A stretch of 64,000 nucleotides of DNA from IMG/VR virus record IMGVR_UViG_3300019458_000024, positions 98,638-162,637 of that record; one strand, written 5' to 3'. A program made the position numbers and the translations under genes. Of the stretch, positions 1,191 to 37,329 are shown one piece after another. This DNA comes from a virus. Within the stretch, counting starts at the first letter, position 1. Each line of letters opens with the position of its first letter. Under the pieces are notes generated by a model. The model worked only from the letters and a program-made list of their open reading frames with translations. It did no database searches and had not been told where the DNA came from.

Positions 1191-3056
1191 ATGGCGGGTA
1201 AAAATAGAAAAATCCAAATCTTTGAATCGTCCATCGAGCGTGTGGCTCGTATTTTGTCAAAGAAATGGAAGATTCGTGTTGTATTTCAAACAGATAGGTG
1301 TGAAACCTCTGGTTCTACCATTTATCTTCCAGTACTTCCAGATAACGCTAGTACAGATCTTACCAACGCCATGCAGGGCTATTTGGACCATGAGGCTGCA
1401 CATGTCGTATACACAGACTTTAAAGCGCTCAACAGGGTCAAAAAGTTGCCTAAAACTATGACGGTGCTCAACGCCCTAGAAGATCCCAGAATTGAGAAGA
1501 AGTGGTGTGATCTCTATCCGGGTGCACGGATTAATCTAAAAAGAGCCCAAGAATGGGCTCTAAATAAAGTGGCCGAAGAAAAGGAAATGGTTGATCCTGA
1601 GGATGGGGTAAAGAAGAAGATGCGGTCCTGGAACGGGCTTACTGATCTTGGTAAGTTTCTCCACGCATCCATTACATATGCCTGCAATGCTTTTGATGAT
1701 AGCCATTGGTTTCTGAAAGATATTGTTGAAGCTGACATTATGAATGATGTCAAAAAGTACTCTTCTTATTTTCAAAAAGCCCTTGCAGTTGACAGTACTA
1801 CCGAGCTTGTTCCTATCGCTAAAGAATTGCTAGAAAAACTAGGACAAGATGATCCGGAACAGCCAGACCCAGAAGAGTCTGAAGAGGAGTCCGAAGAAGA
1901 TGGTACCGGCACATCTGGAAGTCCGGCATCTAGCGGTGGAAGCTCTCCACAATCTCAAGTAATGAACAAACAACCAAAAAATCAAAAGCAGACAGGACCT
2001 AGTCAAGCTCAGGCTGTTCCAGGCATGTTTGCTGACAAAAATGCTAACAAGAGTAGGTACGACGTATCTGAAGAAGGCATTAAAAATGACCAAGATTTGA
2101 CAAATCTTGCTGATCAGATTAAAGAAGCAGCCAAGCACGAACTAGTAAAAGAAGATTGCTATCTTGTATATACCACTGAAGGTGATTCAATTGAGCGCAT
2201 CAAAGACGGAGATAGGATGCGTTATAAAGAATTCATGTTGGAATCTATTAGATTAGTAGCTCCAATGAAACGAAAAATGTCACGTAGTATGCTGGCTACC
2301 AAGCAATCTAATTGGGAGGGGGACAAGACCAGAGGTAAAATTAACCCGCGTAGGGTATACCAAGTGCCTATGGGAACGTCAAAAAGAGTGTTTCGCCAAC
2401 GAGTAGAGTCTGAAGACTATGATACATGTGTGTTGATGATGGTTGACCACTCAGGATCAATGGCAGGCCCTTCGCTGGATTTGGCCGCTAAAACTTCTAT
2501 TATTTTCGGAGAATTACTGAACCAAATTGGGGTACCTTTCTCTGTGTTGGGGTTCTCTACAGGTAGTGAATCCGTAGCCAGTGATCGTATTTCTAAAGCT
2601 TCAGATGAAGAGCGCACTTTGTATAGACGTTGGGGCAATCTATGGATTGGCGAATATAAAAACTTTGAAGAATCTTGGTCTAGTGCTGGTCCTAAGATCA
2701 TTAATATGGTTAGAAATAGTAAAATCAATACTTACGATGGTGAGAGTCTTAGGTATGGTGCACAGGTTCTTTTGGCCCGTCCTGAGAAGCGCAAAATTCT
2801 ATTTTGGCTAAATGATGGTTATCCGCAACCAAACTATGGTGATGATTATTCCGCACACACTAAGTATGCAAAAGACTGCGCTTTGGAAGTAGAAAAAGCT
2901 GTTGAGTTGTTTGCAATTGGTATCCGTACAGATGCAGTAAAACGTTTTTATAAAAATTGTGTGCAAGTCAATTCAGTTGAAGATCTTCCAAAAACGTGTT
3001 TGAGTGAACTTGACGCTCTGATTCGTAAAGGTAAAACTTATCATAGTAAGGGGTAA
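1191..3056 (+). CDS. cobT: CobT-like VWA-domain protein (cobaltochelatase subunit family)
   Basis: This 621-residue protein resembles CobT, the VWA subunit that works with the AAA+ ATPase CobS in aerobic cobaltochelatase and in related phage-encoded pairs. Visible features: an HEAAH motif at residues 67-71 (HExxH type), a very acidic Glu/Asp linker at about 218-238, a Ser/Gly/Pro/Gln stretch to about 275, and a C-terminal VWA domain with the MIDAS DxSxS motif DHSGS at 419-423. A CobS-like gene is present at 8776 and carries the same upstream 17-nt element. Whether the phage pair inserts cobalt or remodels a different target is unknown; no CobN-like subunit is in the window. There is no Shine-Dalgarno before the ATG, which is odd. 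Confidence 0.85.
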   Translation: MAGKNRKIQIFESSIERVARILSKKWKIRVVFQTDRCETSGSTIYLPVLPDNASTDLTNAMQGYLDHEAAHVVYTDFKALNRVKKLPKTMTVLNALEDPRIEKKWCDLYPGARINLKRAQEWALNKVAEEKEMVDPEDGVKKKMRSWNGLTDLGKFLHASITYACNAFDDSHWFLKDIVEADIMNDVKKYSSYFQKALAVDSTTELVPIAKELLEKLGQDDPEQPDPEESEEESEEDGTGTSGSPASSGGSSPQSQVMNKQPKNQKQTGPSQAQAVPGMFADKNANKSRYDVSEEGIKNDQDLTNLADQIKEAAKHELVKEDCYLVYTTEGDSIERIKDGDRMRYKEFMLESIRLVAPMKRKMSRSMLATKQSNWEGDKTRGKINPRRVYQVPMGTSKRVFRQRVESEDYDTCVLMMVDHSGSMAGPSLDLAAKTSIIFGELLNQIGVPFSVLGFSTGSESVASDRISKASDEERTLYRRWGNLWIGEYKNFEESWSSAGPKIINMVRNSKINTYDGESLRYGAQVLLARPEKRKILFWLNDGYPQPNYGDDYSAHTKYAKDCALEVEKAVELFAIGIRTDAVKRFYKNCVQVNSVEDLPKTCLSELDALIRKGKTYHSKG

Positions 3057-3059
3057 ATA

Positions 3060-4559
3060 ATGATTGAATTCAAGCACAATATTGATGTCCATCCCATTCA
3101 GAAAATGGGTGGAGACCACATGGTTGTAGCAGCCGCTAGGGTGTCTACACAAGGACAGGAGGCAGAAGACTTAGTCAATATGCCGGCTGATGAGCAATTT
3201 GGGTTGATCAATTATCTGATGAAGTTTCGCCACGGCACCCCTTTTGAACACAGTGCAATGACATTTTTCGTTAACGCACCAATTTTCGTTTGGCGAGAGT
3301 GGCATCGTCACAGGATTGGTTTTTGTATTGACGGCGAGACCAAGATTTGGACGCAAAGCTACGCAGCAAACTCAGGTTTAACTGTCAGAAAACAAAGCAT
3401 CAAAGAGTTGTATAACAACTGGCATAACGGTGTTATAGATTCCATAGGTAGAGTTAGATATTTGGCATCTGTTAAAGCTCAAAAGTTACGGTGCCTGAAT
3501 GAAGAAACAAAATTGTTCGAAGCAGCCTCGGCATTAGATATATTGTCCACTGGACAGAAGGAAGGTTTTTTACTAGAAACTGATCACGCTAAACACAACA
3601 ATCTTATTGCGTCAAAAGATCATAGAATTCTAACTGTTGACGGTTGGGCAACTATTAGTGATTTGCGTGGCGGCGAATTAATTTATGTGAATGGAAAAAG
3701 AAGTGCCCATGTTGGTGAACCAAAAATGCCTCCAGCGCTTCGTGCAGGCATAGGTGTTTGGACCTCTATGATGCGGCGAGATTTGATCAAAAAAGTTGAC
3801 CGTTGTTATATTTGTAACGATCAATTTAACGCGGAAGAGTTGGTTTTAGATCACGTAATTCCTGTAGTAAGTGATTTGACCAAAGCCTTGGATGTTAGAA
3901 ATTTACAACCATGCTGTGTCAATTGCCACCAACGAAAATCGGATAGCGAGCAGAAATTTGCTACTCGTGACATTAGAGCAGGTGCCGTACTGTCACGAGT
4001 AGCACGAAAGCCCATTGCAGTTGGACCTCGTGATATGTATGACGTAGTTATGCCAGATCCGTGGCATAACTTTGTTGCAAACGGAATAGTAGTGCACAAT
4101 TCGTATAATGAGGAGAGCGCAAGATATACACAGTTGAAGCCGGTGTTTTATATTCCACATCGTGAACGAGAAATGATGAAAGTAGACGGTTGGAAACCTG
4201 GTCGTCCAAAATTTGTCCGGTGTGAAGACAAATCTGTATATACCCAATTGTATTTCAATCTCGCGCATTCCTATACGGCTTCTTACGAAGCATATCAACG
4301 CAACCTTGCCCTTGGTATAGACCCAGGTTTGGCTCGCGATTGTTTACCTGTTGGTATTTATTCTAGTTGTTGGGTCACTTGCAATCCGCGTTCTCTGATG
4401 TCTTTCCTGTCTTTAAGAATTCATAACGAAGATGCGAAGTATGTTTCATACCCACTGTATGAGATTGAAATGGCTGCTAAAACTTGTGAGAAAATGTTCG
4501 AACAAGGTTGGCCACTTACTTATAAAGCATTTATTGAGAATGGTAGAGTCGGCCCGTGA
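3060..4559 (+). CDS. thyX: flavin-dependent thymidylate synthase ThyX, interrupted by an intein
   Basis: ThyX makes dTMP from dUMP using FAD, NAD(P)H and methylene-tetrahydrofolate. The 499-residue precursor contains about 240 residues of ThyX extein: an N-terminal region ending WHRHRIGF and a continuation SYNEESARY, which rejoin to the ThyX signature RHRxxSxNExSxRY. A 259-residue intein separates them. The C-terminal part (NPRSLMSFLSLR) fits the family. The gene lies three bases after the CobT-like gene and overlaps the uracil-DNA glycosylase gene by four bases. Together with that enzyme it suggests active management of thymine and uracil in phage DNA. Activity depends on splicing because the substrate-binding motif is split. 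Confidence 0.93.
   Translation: MIEFKHNIDVHPIQKMGGDHMVVAAARVSTQGQEAEDLVNMPADEQFGLINYLMKFRHGTPFEHSAMTFFVNAPIFVWREWHRHRIGFCIDGETKIWTQSYAANSGLTVRKQSIKELYNNWHNGVIDSIGRVRYLASVKAQKLRCLNEETKLFEAASALDILSTGQKEGFLLETDHAKHNNLIASKDHRILTVDGWATISDLRGGELIYVNGKRSAHVGEPKMPPALRAGIGVWTSMMRRDLIKKVDRCYICNDQFNAEELVLDHVIPVVSDLTKALDVRNLQPCCVNCHQRKSDSEQKFATRDIRAGAVLSRVARKPIAVGPRDMYDVVMPDPWHNFVANGIVVHNSYNEESARYTQLKPVFYIPHREREMMKVDGWKPGRPKFVRCEDKSVYTQLYFNLAHSYTASYEAYQRNLALGIDPGLARDCLPVGIYSSCWVTCNPRSLMSFLSLRIHNEDAKYVSYPLYEIEMAAKTCEKMFEQGWPLTYKAFIENGRVGP
3324..4100 (+). mobile_element. intein with HNH endonuclease domain, inserted in ThyX
   Basis: The intein runs from Cys (TGT 3324) through His-Asn (4095-4100), followed by Ser+1 of the extein, giving 259 residues. 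The N-terminal splicing block begins CIDGETKIW; block B is seen as SKDHRILT; the C-terminal block reads NFVANGIVVHN. A central HNH nuclease domain is visible: CYIC, then LVLDHVIPV, then CCVNCHQRK. This fits a homing intein. HNH rather than LAGLIDADG distinguishes it from the other three inteins in this window. Insertion inside the RHR signature is a typical highly conserved target. Confidence 0.92.
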
Positions 4560-8775: not shown

Positions 8776-9855
8776 ATGGAAACTCAACTCGAAATGAAGA
8801 ATGGTAACGGAATGTCTAAAAAGCCAGAACGCAAAGCGGCACATGTAGTTCAACCAGTTGAACGCCTTACTAAGAAGTTTGGTATCAGTGCAACTTTCGG
8901 AATTGATTTAGGCCCAGAATTAGATGACAACGACAATCCAATTCTGGACGCCTTTGGCAAGCCTGTTATGAAGGAACGGGAAGTCACAGGCTTCGTGGAG
9001 CCGGGACCAGAGACCCCTCAAATTGACCCCCACTACGTCTTCCCAGATGAAGATACCAAGATGATTCTTTTGGGTCTTGAACTTAGGGACCGAATTTTGC
9101 TGACGGGAATGACCGGTACTGGTAAAACTTCTATTCTAGAACAGATTGCAGCACGGCTTAATTACAACGTAATTAAAATCAATTTTGACGGTGCTATTAC
9201 CAGACAAGACCTTATTGGAGAGTGGGTAGTTAAGCCTGGTACGCAGGGTTCCGGATCTATTATGGAATTTCAATACGGAATTTTGCCACACGCATTTCAA
9301 ATGCCTGGAACTATTATTATTTTGGACGAGTGGGATACTATCAGTGGGGAGTGTTCTTTTGTTCTTCAGCGCCCATTGCAAAAGGACGATGGTAAGTTGT
9401 TGATTCTTGAGAATGGAGGGGAACTTATTCCTCTACACCCACAAAATACTATCATCGCTACGGCAAATACCTGTGGTATGGGTGACGACACTGGACTACA
9501 TACACAAGGAACTAAAGTTCAGAACTATGCTCAACTAAATCGTTTTAGCATGACTGTCAAAATGCAGTATCTGAAAGCTGAAGATGAAGTTAAAATGATT
9601 CAGAAAAGGTTTCCAGACCTTAAGTCTATGGAATGCGAGGTTTTTGTAAAAGCTATCAATTTGATTCGCGAAGCGTACGTTAGCGGCCAAATTTCCGCTC
9701 CTCTATCATCTCGTGATTTAATTAATTGGGTTGAAAAGTTTGTACTACTGGGCGACCCTATGCGAGCTGCAACTTATTGTTTTCTTAATAGAATGCCGGC
9801 AGAGGATGCAGAAACCGCCTATTCAACCCTTCAACGAAATTTTAAGGATTCATAG
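8776..9855 (+). CDS. cobS: CobS-like AAA+ ATPase (MoxR/CobS family)
   Basis: The 359-residue protein is an AAA+ ATPase of the CobS type, which partners CobT-like VWA proteins. Walker A is GMTGTGKTS at 111-119 and Walker B is IIILDEWD at 180-187; a sensor-1 segment (IIATANT) and an arginine-containing region follow. The N-terminal 90 residues are phage-specific. The CobT-like partner is encoded at 1191 under the same upstream element. In cobalamin synthesis CobS/CobT drive metal insertion into the corrin ring by CobN; here the substrate is unknown and a protein-remodelling role is equally possible. Confidence 0.9.
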   Translation: METQLEMKNGNGMSKKPERKAAHVVQPVERLTKKFGISATFGIDLGPELDDNDNPILDAFGKPVMKEREVTGFVEPGPETPQIDPHYVFPDEDTKMILLGLELRDRILLTGMTGTGKTSILEQIAARLNYNVIKINFDGAITRQDLIGEWVVKPGTQGSGSIMEFQYGILPHAFQMPGTIIILDEWDTISGECSFVLQRPLQKDDGKLLILENGGELIPLHPQNTIIATANTCGMGDDTGLHTQGTKVQNYAQLNRFSMTVKMQYLKAEDEVKMIQKRFPDLKSMECEVFVKAINLIREAYVSGQISAPLSSRDLINWVEKFVLLGDPMRAATYCFLNRMPAEDAETAYSTLQRNFKDS

Positions 9856-12158: not shown

Positions 12159-13066
12159 ACGAAGAACTAAATAAAGAGATGATGGTGAGTGAGTCTGATC
12201 CTCAGTCTTTGGAGGAACATAGTCATCATGAGCCTGATTCTTTTATGTACATCTATCGTTCTATAGACATTAGTCGCGTGCAAGAAGATGTTGATTTTGT
12301 AGATAAATGCGTGCGAGCTGGGGTGATACCTTCTTCATTACGATATGGTGTAATGCAGCGTAATCAAATGGTAGCGTATCGGGGCATAGTTAAATCTACT
12401 ACAGATAACTATTACTACTTCAATTGGGCTCCTCAAACTGATTTTAGATTAGTTCCAGCGGATGACGCCACTAAACAGTGGGAAGCTCAAAAACTTTTTA
12501 AGACTTGTTCTTTTGGTTGTGATATGCGCAAAGCAGAGGCTCCTCTTTCTCCTGGTGAGTCTATTGAAGGTTGCGAAGAGGAAGAAGTCAGTGAAGACGA
12601 CGCGGACAAAGCAAACGCACCTAACATTTGGCCGGCCGGTAGCCCTTCTCGCGACGAAGACAAAGATATAAGAGAACAAGAATCTGATATTACAGATGCG
12701 CACCCTGGCGCCACGATAGCGCGCACTCCAGATGACCCCAATATTGGAAGGATATGGCATGAAAAAGCTCTATCTAGACCTGGGGATGGGGCCATGCCAT
12801 TAGCCACTAACGATGGGGAACAGCATTGGAACACTGCGGATTTAATGAAAGCATGGGGAAAAAAGCTTCAAGAGTCCGCTCCGGTTGTACAGCCGCAAAT
12901 TACTCCATTGGAGTCTAGGTATTTGCAAGAAGTAATGGGAATGTCTCAAGCTGATGTTAATAAAGGTTTGCGCATTCCAGCTCGCCACAGAATTTCTTTC
13001 GAACAATGGAAATCTGGTCAATTGCGTTCAAACATAGATAACTTAAAATCTTGGCTTAAAAAGTGA
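12155..13066 (+). CDS. hypothetical acidic protein upstream of portal
   Basis: This 303-residue protein has a folded-looking N-terminal domain (FMYIYRSIDISRVQEDVDFV to YYYFNWAPQTDFRLVPAD), an acidic middle (EEEEVSEDDAD), and a C-terminal part with short motifs. Its last bases overlap the portal start, so it is likely a head or packaging protein expressed with portal. I do not recognise it. Confidence 0.6.
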   Translation: MNEELNKEMMVSESDPQSLEEHSHHEPDSFMYIYRSIDISRVQEDVDFVDKCVRAGVIPSSLRYGVMQRNQMVAYRGIVKSTTDNYYYFNWAPQTDFRLVPADDATKQWEAQKLFKTCSFGCDMRKAEAPLSPGESIEGCEEEEVSEDDADKANAPNIWPAGSPSRDEDKDIREQESDITDAHPGATIARTPDDPNIGRIWHEKALSRPGDGAMPLATNDGEQHWNTADLMKAWGKKLQESAPVVQPQITPLESRYLQEVMGMSQADVNKGLRIPARHRISFEQWKSGQLRSNIDNLKSWLKK

Positions 13067-16065
13067 GTAGGCGGAAAAAACATAAAACTTCATCTGCCCC
13101 GATGGACATGAATCACATTGTTCGTGATGTAACTGCTATGCAACTAGCATCGCAGCATATTCCGGCTCTTGTTGCACAGGAAGTTAGAAAGGCGTGGAAA
13201 CAACTTCCTAATGTTGACCCCAAACAAGGTCCAAAAAGTTGGTTTCATGATCCGTTGTCTTTACAGTACTCTCTAGGATATAAAGACAGGAGATTTAGCC
13301 TAACCTATGACACTCTGCGCAGAGTAGCAGGCCAACTTTCAATTATTAGCGCCATTATTAATACCAGAGCCGCTCAGGTCGCTGCTTTTGCACAACCATA
13401 TAGGTGGACTAAAAGTTTAGGTTTTACTATTCGTCACAAGGACTCGGACAGACAAACTACTCCAGCTGAAGTTGAATTTATTAAAGAGTTGGAGCAGTTT
13501 ATTCTTAATTGTGGGCGTTCAGAGCGTAACCCATTTAGTAGGGTTCCTCGTGATGATTTTGAAATGTTTTTGAGAAAAATGGTTCGTGACTCACTTACAC
13601 TAGACCAGTGTTGTGCCGAAATCGTTCCAGATAAAGTTGGTTTGCCTTATGAATTTTATGCACTCGATGCGTCTACTGTAAGGATAGCGGCAGACGATCG
13701 CTATGTAGGAATAAATTCATCTTATCAAAATCGTACTGGATTTGTTCCTGATATGCCGTCACGTTTTCTTGGCTTGTGGGAAGGCAGAAAATACGGAGAG
13801 GAGAATGGAGAAAAACCAATCTCATTCGTCCAAGTAATTAATGGACAGATTGAAAATGTTTACTCGCGAGATGAATTGATGTTTGGGGTTAGAAACCCTA
13901 GAACTGATATTTGGATTCAAGGTTATGGATACAGTGAGCTTGAACAATTAATTACTATTGTTACCTCTCATCTGTACGCAGAGGAATACAACCGCCGATT
14001 TTTCTGCATGTGCGCAGAATCATTAGTAAATACAAAAAATGGCATGATACCAATTGTAGATTTGGTAGATAAAGAATTTGAGGTATGGAATGGCAAAGCA
14101 TGGCGTCGCGCAACAGCTTTTGAGACAGGTAAGCGCAATGTACGCCGCACCAAACTATGGAACGGGCTTGAACTCAGAACCAGTCCAGACCATAAATTTC
14201 ACGTAATTCCGCGTGATAGTTTAGATGGATCGGTGGAGTGGCGCACGCAAGACGCGCTAAAAACAGACGACTATGTACTAGTAAATTATACACGAACCGA
14301 TTGTCCGCTAAATTTGGAAGCACTGTTAGTGGGGAAGACATATCAGAATACGCAAGGCAAGCCTTGGACAGTGACAGAAGAAACTGTTAAAGATGTTGAA
14401 TTTTGGGAAATGATAGGTTTCGCGTTAGGGGACGGTTTGTGGCCTACTTTTTCTGATGGTCGCAGCTCCATGATGATTTACCCTCACCACACTAAAGATG
14501 CCAAATTATTTGAGAAATTTTTGAAAATATGCGACAGACATGGAATAAATGCTAAGCAAAAGCAAATAAATTTACACGTCACTAGAGTTTCTGATGGGGA
14601 GACTGGCTACCCATCAATCGCAATATTTCACACTACATTTTCTGAATGGTTGCGTGAGTTAGGCTTTCGACCGTCAAATCAATCTAGACAAATCCCCAGA
14701 TTCCTATTTTCACAACCGGCATGGATGAGGGAAGCGGTGTTAAGAGGGTTGTTTAGTGCTGACGGGCACAGGCCCGCACATAAATCAGGTTACAATACAC
14801 CAACCGTATTTTCTGCGTGTCCTAGTTTTCAGGCTGATATTGTGTCTTGTCTGTGGTCAGTTGGTGTGTCTGCAAATTTAGTCGGAAAGGGATGGAATCG
14901 TAATGGCAGTATTGACATACAAGATATAGATAAATTTGTAGAACATATAGGTTATCTACAAGATTATAAGAATGAAAATATAAAACGTGCGCCTGAGTCT
15001 AAACATAGGTGGGATAAGCTGCACCCCGTCTATTGTGTATCTTTAGCAAGAAAAATAAAAGACTCCCCAAATTGGGATCGTCTTTCTCGTAAAGACCGTG
15101 ATCTAGTTTGTAAGGTGGCTCGCAATCAGTGTCAAATAAGCAGACCCAGGGCTATTTCAATATGTGCAAATCTCGGCATTGATGGAGGGGACGCTTTGAA
15201 GTATGTTCATGCACCGGTTGATGTGTTGGATCACAAATCTTACGGCACTGAAATGATGTATGATGTTGAAGTTTTTGATGATGAGCATATTTTTCTTGCT
15301 AATCACATGGCTGTACACAATAGCGCAGGCTCTTCTGCAAAGGGTATTTTGAACTTGAAAGGAGATAATTTTACTCCTGAGATGTTGGAGGGCTTCCGCA
15401 GACAGTGGCTAGCTCAAGTCTCCGGAGTAGAAAGTTCCTGGAAAACTCCTGTGCTACAGAGTGAAGGTCTTGAGTATATTGATCTCAATAAGACCAATCA
15501 AGAAATGGAGTTCGGTAAGTGGATGGAGTATCTACTTAAAGTAGCGGCTGGTGTCTACTTAATTGACCCTCAAGAAATCGGTTTTAATATGCAGGGCTCG
15601 ACTCAGCATTCGCCAATGTTTGAATCTAGCCAAGAATGGAAGATTAAAGCTAGCAGAGATAGAGGTCTAAAACCTCTTTTGCGTTTTTTGGCTAAAATGA
15701 TCAATACCAATATTATTGATAAAATTGATGATCATTTTACTCTTGAGTTTGTCGGTCTTGACGAATTGTCTGAGAATGAAAAGCATGAAATGCTCGTTGA
15801 GCAAATCAGTTCTTATATGACTCTTAATGAAGGTCGCAGGACGCTTGGATTAAATGATCTGCCTGGTGGTGATATTCCAATGAACCCAGTATACCAGCAG
15901 GCACTGCAGCTACAAGCTCAGCAAGGAATGGGTCAAGTCTCTGGAGCGGCACCTCCTGAGCAGACTTCAAATTTACCACCTGGTCCTGGTGGAGAAAGTG
16001 GAGTCAAACCTTCAAGCCCTCGTTACAGTGGTTTATTTGGCCATGATGATTCTGGAGAAAACTAA
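13063..16065 (+). CDS. portal protein, interrupted by an intein
   Basis: The 1000-residue precursor holds a 563-residue portal extein and a 437-residue intein. The portal forms the dodecameric DNA gate at the capsid vertex. Supporting features: N-terminal SIISAIINTRAAQVAAFA, a middle segment FGVRNPRTDIWIQGYGYSELEQ, the junction NRRFFCM joined to SAGSSAKGILNLKGD, and a C-terminal Gln/Pro/Gly-rich tail. These match large-phage portals that carry the phrase YNRRFF near SKGIL. Position upstream of the MuF-like, protease and capsid genes agrees. Splicing is needed for function. Confidence 0.9.
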   Translation: MSRRKKHKTSSAPMDMNHIVRDVTAMQLASQHIPALVAQEVRKAWKQLPNVDPKQGPKSWFHDPLSLQYSLGYKDRRFSLTYDTLRRVAGQLSIISAIINTRAAQVAAFAQPYRWTKSLGFTIRHKDSDRQTTPAEVEFIKELEQFILNCGRSERNPFSRVPRDDFEMFLRKMVRDSLTLDQCCAEIVPDKVGLPYEFYALDASTVRIAADDRYVGINSSYQNRTGFVPDMPSRFLGLWEGRKYGEENGEKPISFVQVINGQIENVYSRDELMFGVRNPRTDIWIQGYGYSELEQLITIVTSHLYAEEYNRRFFCMCAESLVNTKNGMIPIVDLVDKEFEVWNGKAWRRATAFETGKRNVRRTKLWNGLELRTSPDHKFHVIPRDSLDGSVEWRTQDALKTDDYVLVNYTRTDCPLNLEALLVGKTYQNTQGKPWTVTEETVKDVEFWEMIGFALGDGLWPTFSDGRSSMMIYPHHTKDAKLFEKFLKICDRHGINAKQKQINLHVTRVSDGETGYPSIAIFHTTFSEWLRELGFRPSNQSRQIPRFLFSQPAWMREAVLRGLFSADGHRPAHKSGYNTPTVFSACPSFQADIVSCLWSVGVSANLVGKGWNRNGSIDIQDIDKFVEHIGYLQDYKNENIKRAPESKHRWDKLHPVYCVSLARKIKDSPNWDRLSRKDRDLVCKVARNQCQISRPRAISICANLGIDGGDALKYVHAPVDVLDHKSYGTEMMYDVEVFDDEHIFLANHMAVHNSAGSSAKGILNLKGDNFTPEMLEGFRRQWLAQVSGVESSWKTPVLQSEGLEYIDLNKTNQEMEFGKWMEYLLKVAAGVYLIDPQEIGFNMQGSTQHSPMFESSQEWKIKASRDRGLKPLLRFLAKMINTNIIDKIDDHFTLEFVGLDELSENEKHEMLVEQISSYMTLNEGRRTLGLNDLPGGDIPMNPVYQQALQLQAQQGMGQVSGAAPPEQTSNLPPGPGGESGVKPSSPRYSGLFGHDDSGEN
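14011..15321 (+). mobile_element. intein with LAGLIDADG homing endonuclease, inserted in portal
   Basis: The element starts at Cys (TGC 14011; CAESLVNTKNG) and ends with VHN at 15313-15321 before Ser+1, giving 437 residues. Block B is TSPDHKFHV. Two LAGLIDADG-type helices are visible, IGFALGDGLW and LRGLFSADGH, so it is a full homing intein. It interrupts the conserved segment just before SAGSSAKGIL of the portal. The C-terminal block reads DVEVFDDEHIFLANHMAVHN. Confidence 0.93.
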
Positions 16066-33924: not shown

Positions 33925-35523
33925 ATGGCAACGCCGAATAAAAAGAAAGTCTCCAAGACCGAAACTACGAAGCATTTGAATTGGATGGGAGGTGCTTCAT
34001 ACTTCTCTAGTAATCCAGTTCAATCCCTTAGATTGATTGCCTCTAGTTGTTTTTTTGGAGAGCCTCAATATTATCATAAAGATTCATCTGTAGTAGGTTC
34101 GCGCCTTACAGAGCGACAATTGACAAGTTTGCGTGAGAGGCTTAATGCACTGGACCCCCAAGAGTGGAGAAGTAAGTCTCCTCAAGAATGTATGATTAAC
34201 GCTATTGATGATGCGTTAAATCATAGTGTTGAGCAAACACTGCAGGAGGCTGTTCGTCTTCGTCAAGAAGACAATATTCGCACCACACCCCAAGTTATCC
34301 TTGTACGTGCTGCCCACCACAAAAATGCAAAAGGTACGGGACTAGTTGGAAAATACGGTAAGGATATTGTGATTCGTACTGACGAACCTTCCGTTGGATT
34401 GGCCTATCATATTGAAACATATGGAAAAGATGCGCCCATTCCCAACAGCTTGAAGAAGGTGTGGGCACGCTATTTGGAAAAGAGGTCTGAAAAGGACCTC
34501 GCTAAATACAAGATGGATACTCGTGGTGTGAAGACTGTTGATGTGGTCAACCTAGTTCATCCCAAGAGAACGCCGGCTATACACAAGCTTGTTAGAGGTG
34601 AACTTAAACTTGAGGCTAGTACTTGGGAATCTTTGATTTCCTCAAACGGTTCTAATTGTAATACTTGGACGCAAGCTGTTGACATTATGGGTCATATGGC
34701 ACTTTTGCGCAATGTTAGGAATTTACTAGACAATAAAGTCGAGCAAAGATTGTTTTTGTCTAAACTTGTAGACGGTGCAAAGACAGGTAAGCAACTTCCG
34801 TTTCGATACTATTCCGCATTTAGAGCTATTCCCGATGCGCCCGGCACGGTCAAAGATGCTATTGAACAGTGTATGGAAATCACTATGGAAAATGTTCCTA
34901 ACTTTTCCGGACGTGTAATGTCCCTATGCGATAATAGCGGCTCCGCTCAGGGAACTACTACTTCTTCTATGGGAACTATGAAAGTTTCTACTATAGCTAA
35001 TCTCACTGGTTGCATTGTCGGTGCTAAGGCAGACGAGGGTTATGTAGGAGTGTTTGGTGATCGTCTAGATGTTATGAGCATTCGCAAAAAGTCTTCTATT
35101 TTTGACAATTTGGAAAAGGCAGAAACACTTGCTGAGCGCGTAGGTCAAGAAACTGAAAATGGTATTTGGTTATTCTGGGATAAGGCTATTCGTGAGAAAG
35201 AGCATTGGGATCATGTGTTTGTTTTTTCCGACCTGCAGGCTGGACACGGTGGCCTATACGGTATAAACGCACAGTCTTACAAAGACTACGCGTGGGATAA
35301 TGGAAGACACATTGATGTTTCTAAACTCATCAATGCCTATAGGTCTAAAGTCAACCCACTTGTTAACGTGTATTTGGTACAAGTTGCGGGCTATAAAGAT
35401 ACTATTCTTCCTGAGTTCTACGATAGAACTTTCATTCTCAGTGGATGGGGTGAGGGTGTACTGAAGTTCGCGGGTCAAATGACCAGTGTTATGAACCAAG
35501 TTTCACAGAAAAAAGCTGTTTGA
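33925..35523 (+). CDS. rsr: TROVE-domain Ro60 orthologue (Rsr) with VWA domain
   Basis: The 532-residue protein matches prokaryotic Ro60: an N-terminal TROVE HEAT-repeat ring (LNWMGGASYFSSNPVQSLRL, then QVILVRAAHHKNAKGTG, DVVNLVHPKRTPAIHKLV, MALLRNVRNLL) and a C-terminal VWA domain with the MIDAS motif DNSGS at residues 336-340. Ro60/Rsr rings bind misfolded RNAs in the central channel and Y RNAs on the outer face, and in bacteria associate with exonucleases. Here the gene stands after a 235-base structured gap. Phage copies may protect phage RNA or redirect host RNA decay. Shine-Dalgarno gggg precedes ATG. Confidence 0.93.
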   Translation: MATPNKKKVSKTETTKHLNWMGGASYFSSNPVQSLRLIASSCFFGEPQYYHKDSSVVGSRLTERQLTSLRERLNALDPQEWRSKSPQECMINAIDDALNHSVEQTLQEAVRLRQEDNIRTTPQVILVRAAHHKNAKGTGLVGKYGKDIVIRTDEPSVGLAYHIETYGKDAPIPNSLKKVWARYLEKRSEKDLAKYKMDTRGVKTVDVVNLVHPKRTPAIHKLVRGELKLEASTWESLISSNGSNCNTWTQAVDIMGHMALLRNVRNLLDNKVEQRLFLSKLVDGAKTGKQLPFRYYSAFRAIPDAPGTVKDAIEQCMEITMENVPNFSGRVMSLCDNSGSAQGTTTSSMGTMKVSTIANLTGCIVGAKADEGYVGVFGDRLDVMSIRKKSSIFDNLEKAETLAERVGQETENGIWLFWDKAIREKEHWDHVFVFSDLQAGHGGLYGINAQSYKDYAWDNGRHIDVSKLINAYRSKVNPLVNVYLVQVAGYKDTILPEFYDRTFILSGWGEGVLKFAGQMTSVMNQVSQKKAV

Positions 35524-36662: not shown

Positions 36663-37329
36663 ATGTCTATCATTGTAGAAGTAAGAGCCGGCGAAGGTGG
36701 CACAGATGCTAAACTACTGGTAAAAGACCAGTTTGTGATTTACTCGAAGATGGGAGCCCGGAGGGGTCTTTGAGGTTGAATTACTAGATGACAGACCAGG
36801 GTTGCTTATCTTCAAAGTGACTGGTAAAACAGCCGCTGAAGCGTTTAAAAATGAACCAGGCGGTCATAGAGTTCAAAGAATTCCACCCACTGAACGGAGT
36901 GGAAGGGTGCATACATCAACAATAACTGTATGCGTCTTACCTGAACCCACAGAAACTCAAATTAAACTAGATGATCAAGATCTAGAGTGGCAGTTTTGTA
37001 GGGGCTCAGGAGCAGGTGGTCAAAATCGTAACAAACGGTCAACTGCCGTACAGCTAACCTATAAACCTACCGGCTTAATGGTGCGTTGTGAGTCTGAGCG
37101 GGCTCAGGATGCTAATAGGCGCGGAGCTTTGTCTATTCTTAGGGCAAAGCTTTGGGAGGCTAAAAACAGCGCTAACGCTGCTACAAGGGCGTTTGACCGC
37201 AAGTCTCAAATAGGGTCAGGACAACGTGCTGATAAGATTAGAACTATAAGATACCAGGATGGAGTGGTTACGGACCATAGATTGAACAAACGTTGGAATC
37301 TTAAGGATTATTTGCGTGGGAATTTCTAA
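36663..37329 (+). CDS. short RF1-type peptide chain release factor with programmed +1 frameshift
   Basis: The first 36 codons (MSIIVEVRAGEGGTDAKLLV...) end at TGA 36771; after +1 slippage at CTT 36768-36770 reading continues with GAG 36772 to give about 221 residues. The joined product matches domains 2-4 of class I release factors: HRVQRIPPTE, with PPT (residues 74-76) at the RF1 PxT codon-recognition position; GSGAGGQ with the catalytic GGQ (118-120); and an RF1-like end, RTIRYQDGVVTDHRLN. Domain 1 of normal RFs is missing, as in short release or rescue factors such as PrfH. The shift site copies the layout of E. coli prfB (SD-like, spacer, CTT TGA). Confidence 0.88.
36760..36773 (+). promoter_or_regulatory. 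prfB-like programmed +1 ribosomal frameshift site
   Basis: The coding order is CGG AGG GGT CTT TGA G: a Shine-Dalgarno-like GGAGG(GG) separated by three bases from CTT TGA, as in prfB (AGG GGG TAT CTT TGA C). Slow UGA termination would favour the +1 shift. The base after the stop is G rather than C. Confidence 0.85.

Follow-up and report, generated by a model that had tools for sequence, protein, structure and literature searches.

An RF1-type release factor gene of a phage is interrupted by an in-frame stop codon within a prfB-like +1 frameshift cassette, and a stop gate recurs in relatives carried by phages, megaplasmids, and myxobacterial and other bacterial chromosomes. The analysis confirmed that this stop-gated RF1-like switch is real and widespread, with the shift itself being predicted from sequence. 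We consider it reasonably probable that the gene encodes an accessory RF1-type class I factor lacking domain 1, whose synthesis would be gated by its own in-frame stop.

The gene in the window

The window, a stretch of 64,000 nucleotides, is part of an IMG/VR virus record of 162,637 bp. The ATG of the RF1-like gene, at 36663, follows the TGA that ends the upstream ORF by four bases, and the parts of the gene are listed in Table 1. The original prediction held that this gene reproduces the layout of the prfB switch and that the +1 frame carries on the class I release-factor sequence, and both points were borne out. GGAGG is found exactly 3 nt before CTT TGA (36768–36773), and the presence of all elements of a prfB-type +1 cassette (an SD-like element, a 3-nt spacer, a CTT-stop, and continuation in the +1 frame) is confirmed. 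Omission of T36771 gives a joined product of 221 aa, and the Pfam domains PCRF (residues 2–89, 1.1e-22) and RF-1 (PF00472, residues 97–206, 2.6e-29) cover it across the joint. The joined protein also matches RF1s of solved structure on both sides of the joint (phmmer 1.9e-50 to one of them, residues 3–219). Its N-terminus corresponds to approximately residue 87–112 of these RF1s and domain 1 is therefore missing. The absence of this domain and the presence of PPT in the PxT position of RF1 had both been predicted, and both were found in the product, together with HRVQR containing Gln181. Gln181 and the Thr of PxT are marks of RF1 in RF1/RF2 decoding. The product has the GGQ motif and RF-1 domain of the class I release factor superfamily, and it scores under the cut-offs for RF1 equivalogs (NF001859, 237 of 400 bits; TIGR00019, 229 of 423 bits).

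Table 1. Parts of the RF1-like gene (positions in the window)
Feature	Position	Strand	Description
Zero-frame segment, ATG to CTT	36663..36770	+	36 codons; N-terminal part of release factor domain 2; MSIIVEVRAGEGGTDAKLLVKDQFVIYSKMGARRGL
SD-like stimulator GGAGG	36760..36764	+	within the CGG AGG codons
Spacer GGT, 3 nt	36765..36767	+	length equals that of host prfB, e.g., CGGAGG CAT CTTTGAC
Slippery CTT and gate stop TGA	36768..36773	+	predicted +1 slip from CUU to UUU, one base skipped
+1-frame segment	36772..37329	+	rest of domain 2 with PPT, GGQ domain, stop TAA at 37327–37329

A contractile tail is inferred for the window phage from its tail sheath, and portal and major head proteins are encoded nearby. 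The phage has no tRNA genes across its 162 kb. Several other genes of the window are worth recording. The portal gene (13063–16065, 1000 aa) contains an insert of approximately 400 aa, probably an intein, whose match to Pfam Intein_splicing is below the cut-off. A second probable intein, this one with an HNH endonuclease, interrupts a ThyX-type thymidylate synthase gene (3060–4559). The gene for a TROVE (Ro60-like) RNA-binding protein (33925–35523) precedes the release factor gene by a few genes. A CobT-like VWA protein (1191–3056) and an ATPase (8776–9855) with a match to a phage family labeled "porphyrin biosynthesis" perhaps form a cobaltochelatase-like pair.

Relatives of the gene

A scan of viral contigs with the single protein gave no matches, and a profile built from an alignment was required. 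The first relative was found in the 485-kb phage LR745208 as a match starting exactly at the joint, and the frame upstream of it ends in ...RRGL* with the identical CGGAGGGGTCTTTGA. When viral contigs were scanned with this 15-mer, it occurred in 66 stretches, more than 12 of which, from different phages, carry it at the equivalent position within an RF1-like gene. Profile-based protein searches, run on viral contigs as well as on bacterial and archaeal genomes, yielded 193 usable loci, and 145 non-redundant relatives remained after those more than 90% identical had been merged. A +1 break at a CTT-stop is found in 101 of these relatives, in-frame TGA without a break in 35, and the other 9 are uninterrupted. 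The CTT-stop lies at alignment position 35–37 in 87 non-redundant members, the total of 101 being reached when all positions are counted. The original prediction had pointed to a homologue search for the co-occurrence of the shift site and PxT, and this co-occurrence was observed: the 101 shifted relatives have RF1-type recognition residues, mostly PPT. It had also named uninterrupted homologues with an SPF-type motif as contrary evidence, but just 9 of the 145 relatives are uninterrupted and SPF is absent from every member of the family. These nine relatives do indicate that some lineages can do without the gate.

Bacterial hosts of the accessory gene also encode canonical RF1 and RF2 in those genomes where the fetched loci permitted the check, and the RF1-like factor is therefore accessory. 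Several phage copies are situated among tRNA genes. Neighborhood comparison revealed no conserved neighbor gene of the family, and Pfam and PHROGs annotation of the neighbors indicated no clear prophage around the chromosomal copies. In the copy of Nannocystis pusilla Na p29 (L225:5000–5130), the slippery run is one T short and a second deletion seems to lie nearby; both are probably assembly errors.

Conservation of the shift site

Statistics on the stimulator were obtained from 88 non-redundant shifted members, and since these had been recovered by protein search, they carry no bias from the DNA pattern. GGAGG was observed 1–4 nt before CTT in 40 of the 88 genes compared to 2.8 expected from synonymous shuffling, an excess of approximately 14-fold, and the spacer is exactly 3 nt in 39 of these 40 copies. 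CGG AGG encodes 35 of the 42 Arg-Arg pairs found in the shifted relatives. CTT accounts for 0.8% of codons elsewhere in the shifted genes, yet it precedes the stop at every accepted site; CTT was a requirement for accepting a site, and in the unfiltered table of frame breaks it is found everywhere except at a few damaged or misassigned loci. Binding to the anti-Shine-Dalgarno sequence is highest just upstream of the shift site in the family, and approximately 20 of the 101 shifted sites are without a recognizable stimulator. Conservation of the GGAGG-CTT-stop layout in relatives excludes chance as its origin. Both segments are under purifying selection, each in its own frame only: upstream of the joint, dN/dS is 0.22 in frame 0; just downstream of it, the +1 frame gives 0.24, and values in the alternative frames exceed 1.5.

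Nearly all canonical prfB genes checked in the same genomes have GGAGG or GGGGG, 3 nt, and CTTTGAC. Such a shift site is absent from all of the approximately 11 canonical prfA genes checked in these genomes.

Gate stops and recognition residues

On the tree, the stop-gated RF1-like family is a single clade (SH-aLRT 98), and RF1 (87) and RF2 (100) stand apart from it. Of the 101 non-redundant shifted members, 76 have UGA as the gate stop, 23 have UAG, and 2 have UAA. The gate stop switches at least 22 times on the family tree, the exact count being soft because only 48 of the 151 inner branches are starred. UAG-gated members hardly cluster on the tree, with 63 of 500 shuffles giving a value as low. 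Gln181 is found in all 101 shifted members, most have PPT, residue 194 is Thr or Ser, and every aligned member has GGQ. Nearly all members have Asp in place of Glu119, and approximately 40% of the shifted ones have Gln in place of His193. No correlation of the gate stop with H193Q or PxT was seen in a test of little power.

Since the gate stop switches while the RF1-type residues stay, the conserved property is a stop that needs to be bypassed rather than the sensing of RF2. The proposal of an RF1 gated by RF2 stands for the window gene, where the UGA gate implies RF2 sensing, but does not extend to the family, as the gates of relatives can be UGA, UAG, or UAA. The original prediction is, in this respect, partly supported, being right in outline and too narrow, with the RF2-gated RF1 as one case of a broader principle.

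A separate observation concerns the close shifted relatives L002 and L118 (485-kb phage; L002 2891–3546), which have lost the PxT tripeptide (HRVQRTSNGRIHSS) and kept the shift site and GGQ. Their product may no longer read stops in the manner of RF1.

The gate is also found at other positions. The CTT-stop lies at the extreme N-terminus in L004, L090, L091, L096, L098, L099, L108, L110, and L117, and also in L146, with N-terminal gates being carried by the "FGEGGDDSKLF" group, and it lies near codon 47 in L239, L240, and L247. Another 17 of the 145 relatives have a single in-frame TGA without a shift at position 37, 38, or 48, either on contigs where TGA serves as the stop of other long ORFs or in bacteria using the standard code. 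Copies of this kind (Thalassospira xianhensis, Rhodovibrio sodomensis, Jiella, Variovorax megaplasmids) are annotated as two ORFs, and UGA readthrough is probable for all 17. The UGA at position 37 occupies the tryptophan site of RF1, which makes readthrough by tRNA-Trp the natural guess. Finally, 18 of the 145 relatives are found in genomes, mostly of huge phages, that apparently read TGA as Trp, as judged from several in-frame TGAs and TAA as the main stop in the flanks. In the apparently UGA-recoded huge phages of L003, L005–L007, L085, L087, L092, and relatives, TGAs lie inside the RF1-like gene itself.

Comparison with known systems

The closest counterpart of the family is the switch of prfB, which encodes RF2 (PMC12421855, PMC3711429). 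The two share GGAGG/AGGGGG, the 3-nt spacer, the CTT-stop, and the +1 direction, and the prfB cassette is found in the same host genomes. Unlike prfB, the family encodes an RF1-type product without domain 1, its gate is usually at approximately codon 36 in domain 2 rather than in domain 1, and some members have in-frame UGA instead of a shift. UAG gates occur in the family, whereas a 2025 survey of 8,164 prfB motifs found TGA in 98.6%, TAA in 1.4%, and TAG in none (PMC12421855). The same survey reported no programmed shift in prfA (PMC12421855), and a 2016 review described a UGA-readthrough RF2 gene and a UAG counterpart in release factor 1 genes as unknown (PMC5009743). Compared to RF1 encoded by prfA, the window product has domains 2–4, PxT, Gln181, and GGQ in common, but it lacks domain 1 and falls in a separate clade, and prfA is without a frameshift (PMC12421855).

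Among viruses, the class I release factor of Mimivirus and Megavirus (PMC3521657) is the nearest precedent and is kin in principle, as a viral release factor gene expressed via frameshift and readthrough. It differs in being of the eukaryotic/archaeal type, in belonging to viruses of amoebae, and in not being homologous to bacterial RF1. Lak megaphages carry a release factor 2 (PMC6784885), which is likewise phage-borne and linked to stop-codon use; it is an RF2 in UAG-recoded phages, whereas the family members in apparently UGA-recoded huge phages are RF1-type. The original prediction knew of no described phage gene combining these features. This stands for the open-access literature searched, where no report of a phage-encoded release factor with a frameshift was found, but the gene is not exclusive to phages, as bacterial chromosomes and megaplasmids carry it too. 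PrfH/RFH (PMC1586002, PMC6514570) resembles the family as an accessory, sporadic class I factor without domain 1. Unlike PrfH, the family keeps PxT, has a stop gate, and has no conserved partner gene, which for PrfH is RtcB.

Alternative explanations

Single-base frame breaks are common in assemblies, and a few copies (L088, L225) do have extra indels, but the identical CTT-stop break is shared by 101 non-redundant genes whose assemblies are independent and include complete chromosomes, and selection is purifying on both sides of the joint. The shifted accessory gene is present in isolate or complete genomes of Minicystis rosea, Nannocystis exedens, N. poenicansa, and Pyxidicoccus fallax, which excludes an assembly error, and the chance that the gene is simply broken or misassembled is practically negligible. 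Another explanation is that two proteins are made, with GGAGG serving as a ribosome-binding site for a shorter +1 product. GGAGG is a strong motif of this kind and a TTG at 36802 opens an ORF of 175 aa. The window has no +1-frame start codon 5–9 nt from GGAGG, however, purifying selection sets in right after the joint, and the distance between GGAGG and CTT is fixed at 3 nt, all of which make internal initiation very improbable.

Two further explanations accept the gate and differ in what the product would do. If the factor were omnipotent and also released at UGA, any gate would provide direct negative feedback and the choice of gate stop would be neutral. This would account for the free switching of the gate stop (22 changes) and for recognition residues that do not track the gate, and E119D, PPT, and H193Q depart from canonical RF1. 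We consider it unlikely, as the RF1 markers Gln181 and the PxT Thr are retained and the RF2-type SPF motif is absent. It is quite unlikely that the product serves ribosome rescue, with slippage occurring upon general stalling and the product clearing stalled ribosomes as proposed for PrfH, a likeness raised in the original prediction. The lack of domain 1 is shared with PrfH and ArfB, E119D and the partial H193Q change could be read in this way, and a lineage without the PxT tripeptide exists (L002/L118). Against this, Q181, PxT, and T194 are retained in nearly all members, and the likeness to PrfH proved weak, with a score far under the cut-off (60.5 compared to 166.65 bits) and no conserved neighbor such as RtcB. 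The ArfB score is also low (49.8 of 100 bits), and the presence of the PCRF domain means that the architecture is not that of ArfB.

Proposed mechanism

For an RF1-type accessory factor gated by its own stop, the mechanism can be modeled on prfB. With slow release at the gate stop, GGAGG would pair with the anti-Shine-Dalgarno sequence of 16S rRNA, and on the ribosome strained in this way the peptidyl-tRNA-Leu would slip from CUU to UUU, so that the full factor is made. Quick release at the gate stop would instead yield a 36-aa peptide. In the window gene, host RF2 would be the rate-limiting factor at UGA and the gate would read RF2 activity. From few residues, we infer that the product is specific for UAA/UAG; RF1-type residues and GGQ suggest that it would add release capacity at these stops, presumably as a backup factor for the phage or the host. 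With UAG or UAA gates, a product reading UAA/UAG would close a direct loop. UGA gates would respond to lost RF2 in an open loop, unless UGA is also read by the product, and the UGA-gated majority would be without autoregulation if the product reads UAA/UAG only.

Because the gate of the family can be any stop, bypassed by a +1 shift or apparently by UGA readthrough, the switch would respond to insufficient termination. That the gate stop switches freely speaks for sensitivity to failing termination as the property kept by selection. The evidence is about evenly balanced for the widest statement, that this is a mobile, widespread RF1-like accessory family switched on by termination failure at any stop, with a +1 or readthrough gate at three or more positions, with the factor unavailable in UGA-recoded phages until UGA is decoded as an amino acid, and with a UAG-gated RF1 counterpart of prfB among its members.

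Significance

Within the literature covered, prfB is the only bacterial release factor gene with a stop-gated switch. The family adds RF1-type genes gated by UGA, UAG, or UAA, together with release factor genes that have a conserved in-frame UGA, and through this natural variation the autoregulation hypothesis can be put to the test. In phages and some bacteria, a spare factor is apparently kept in reserve for times when termination falters, a sign that the capacity for termination may be limiting, or under attack, during infection.
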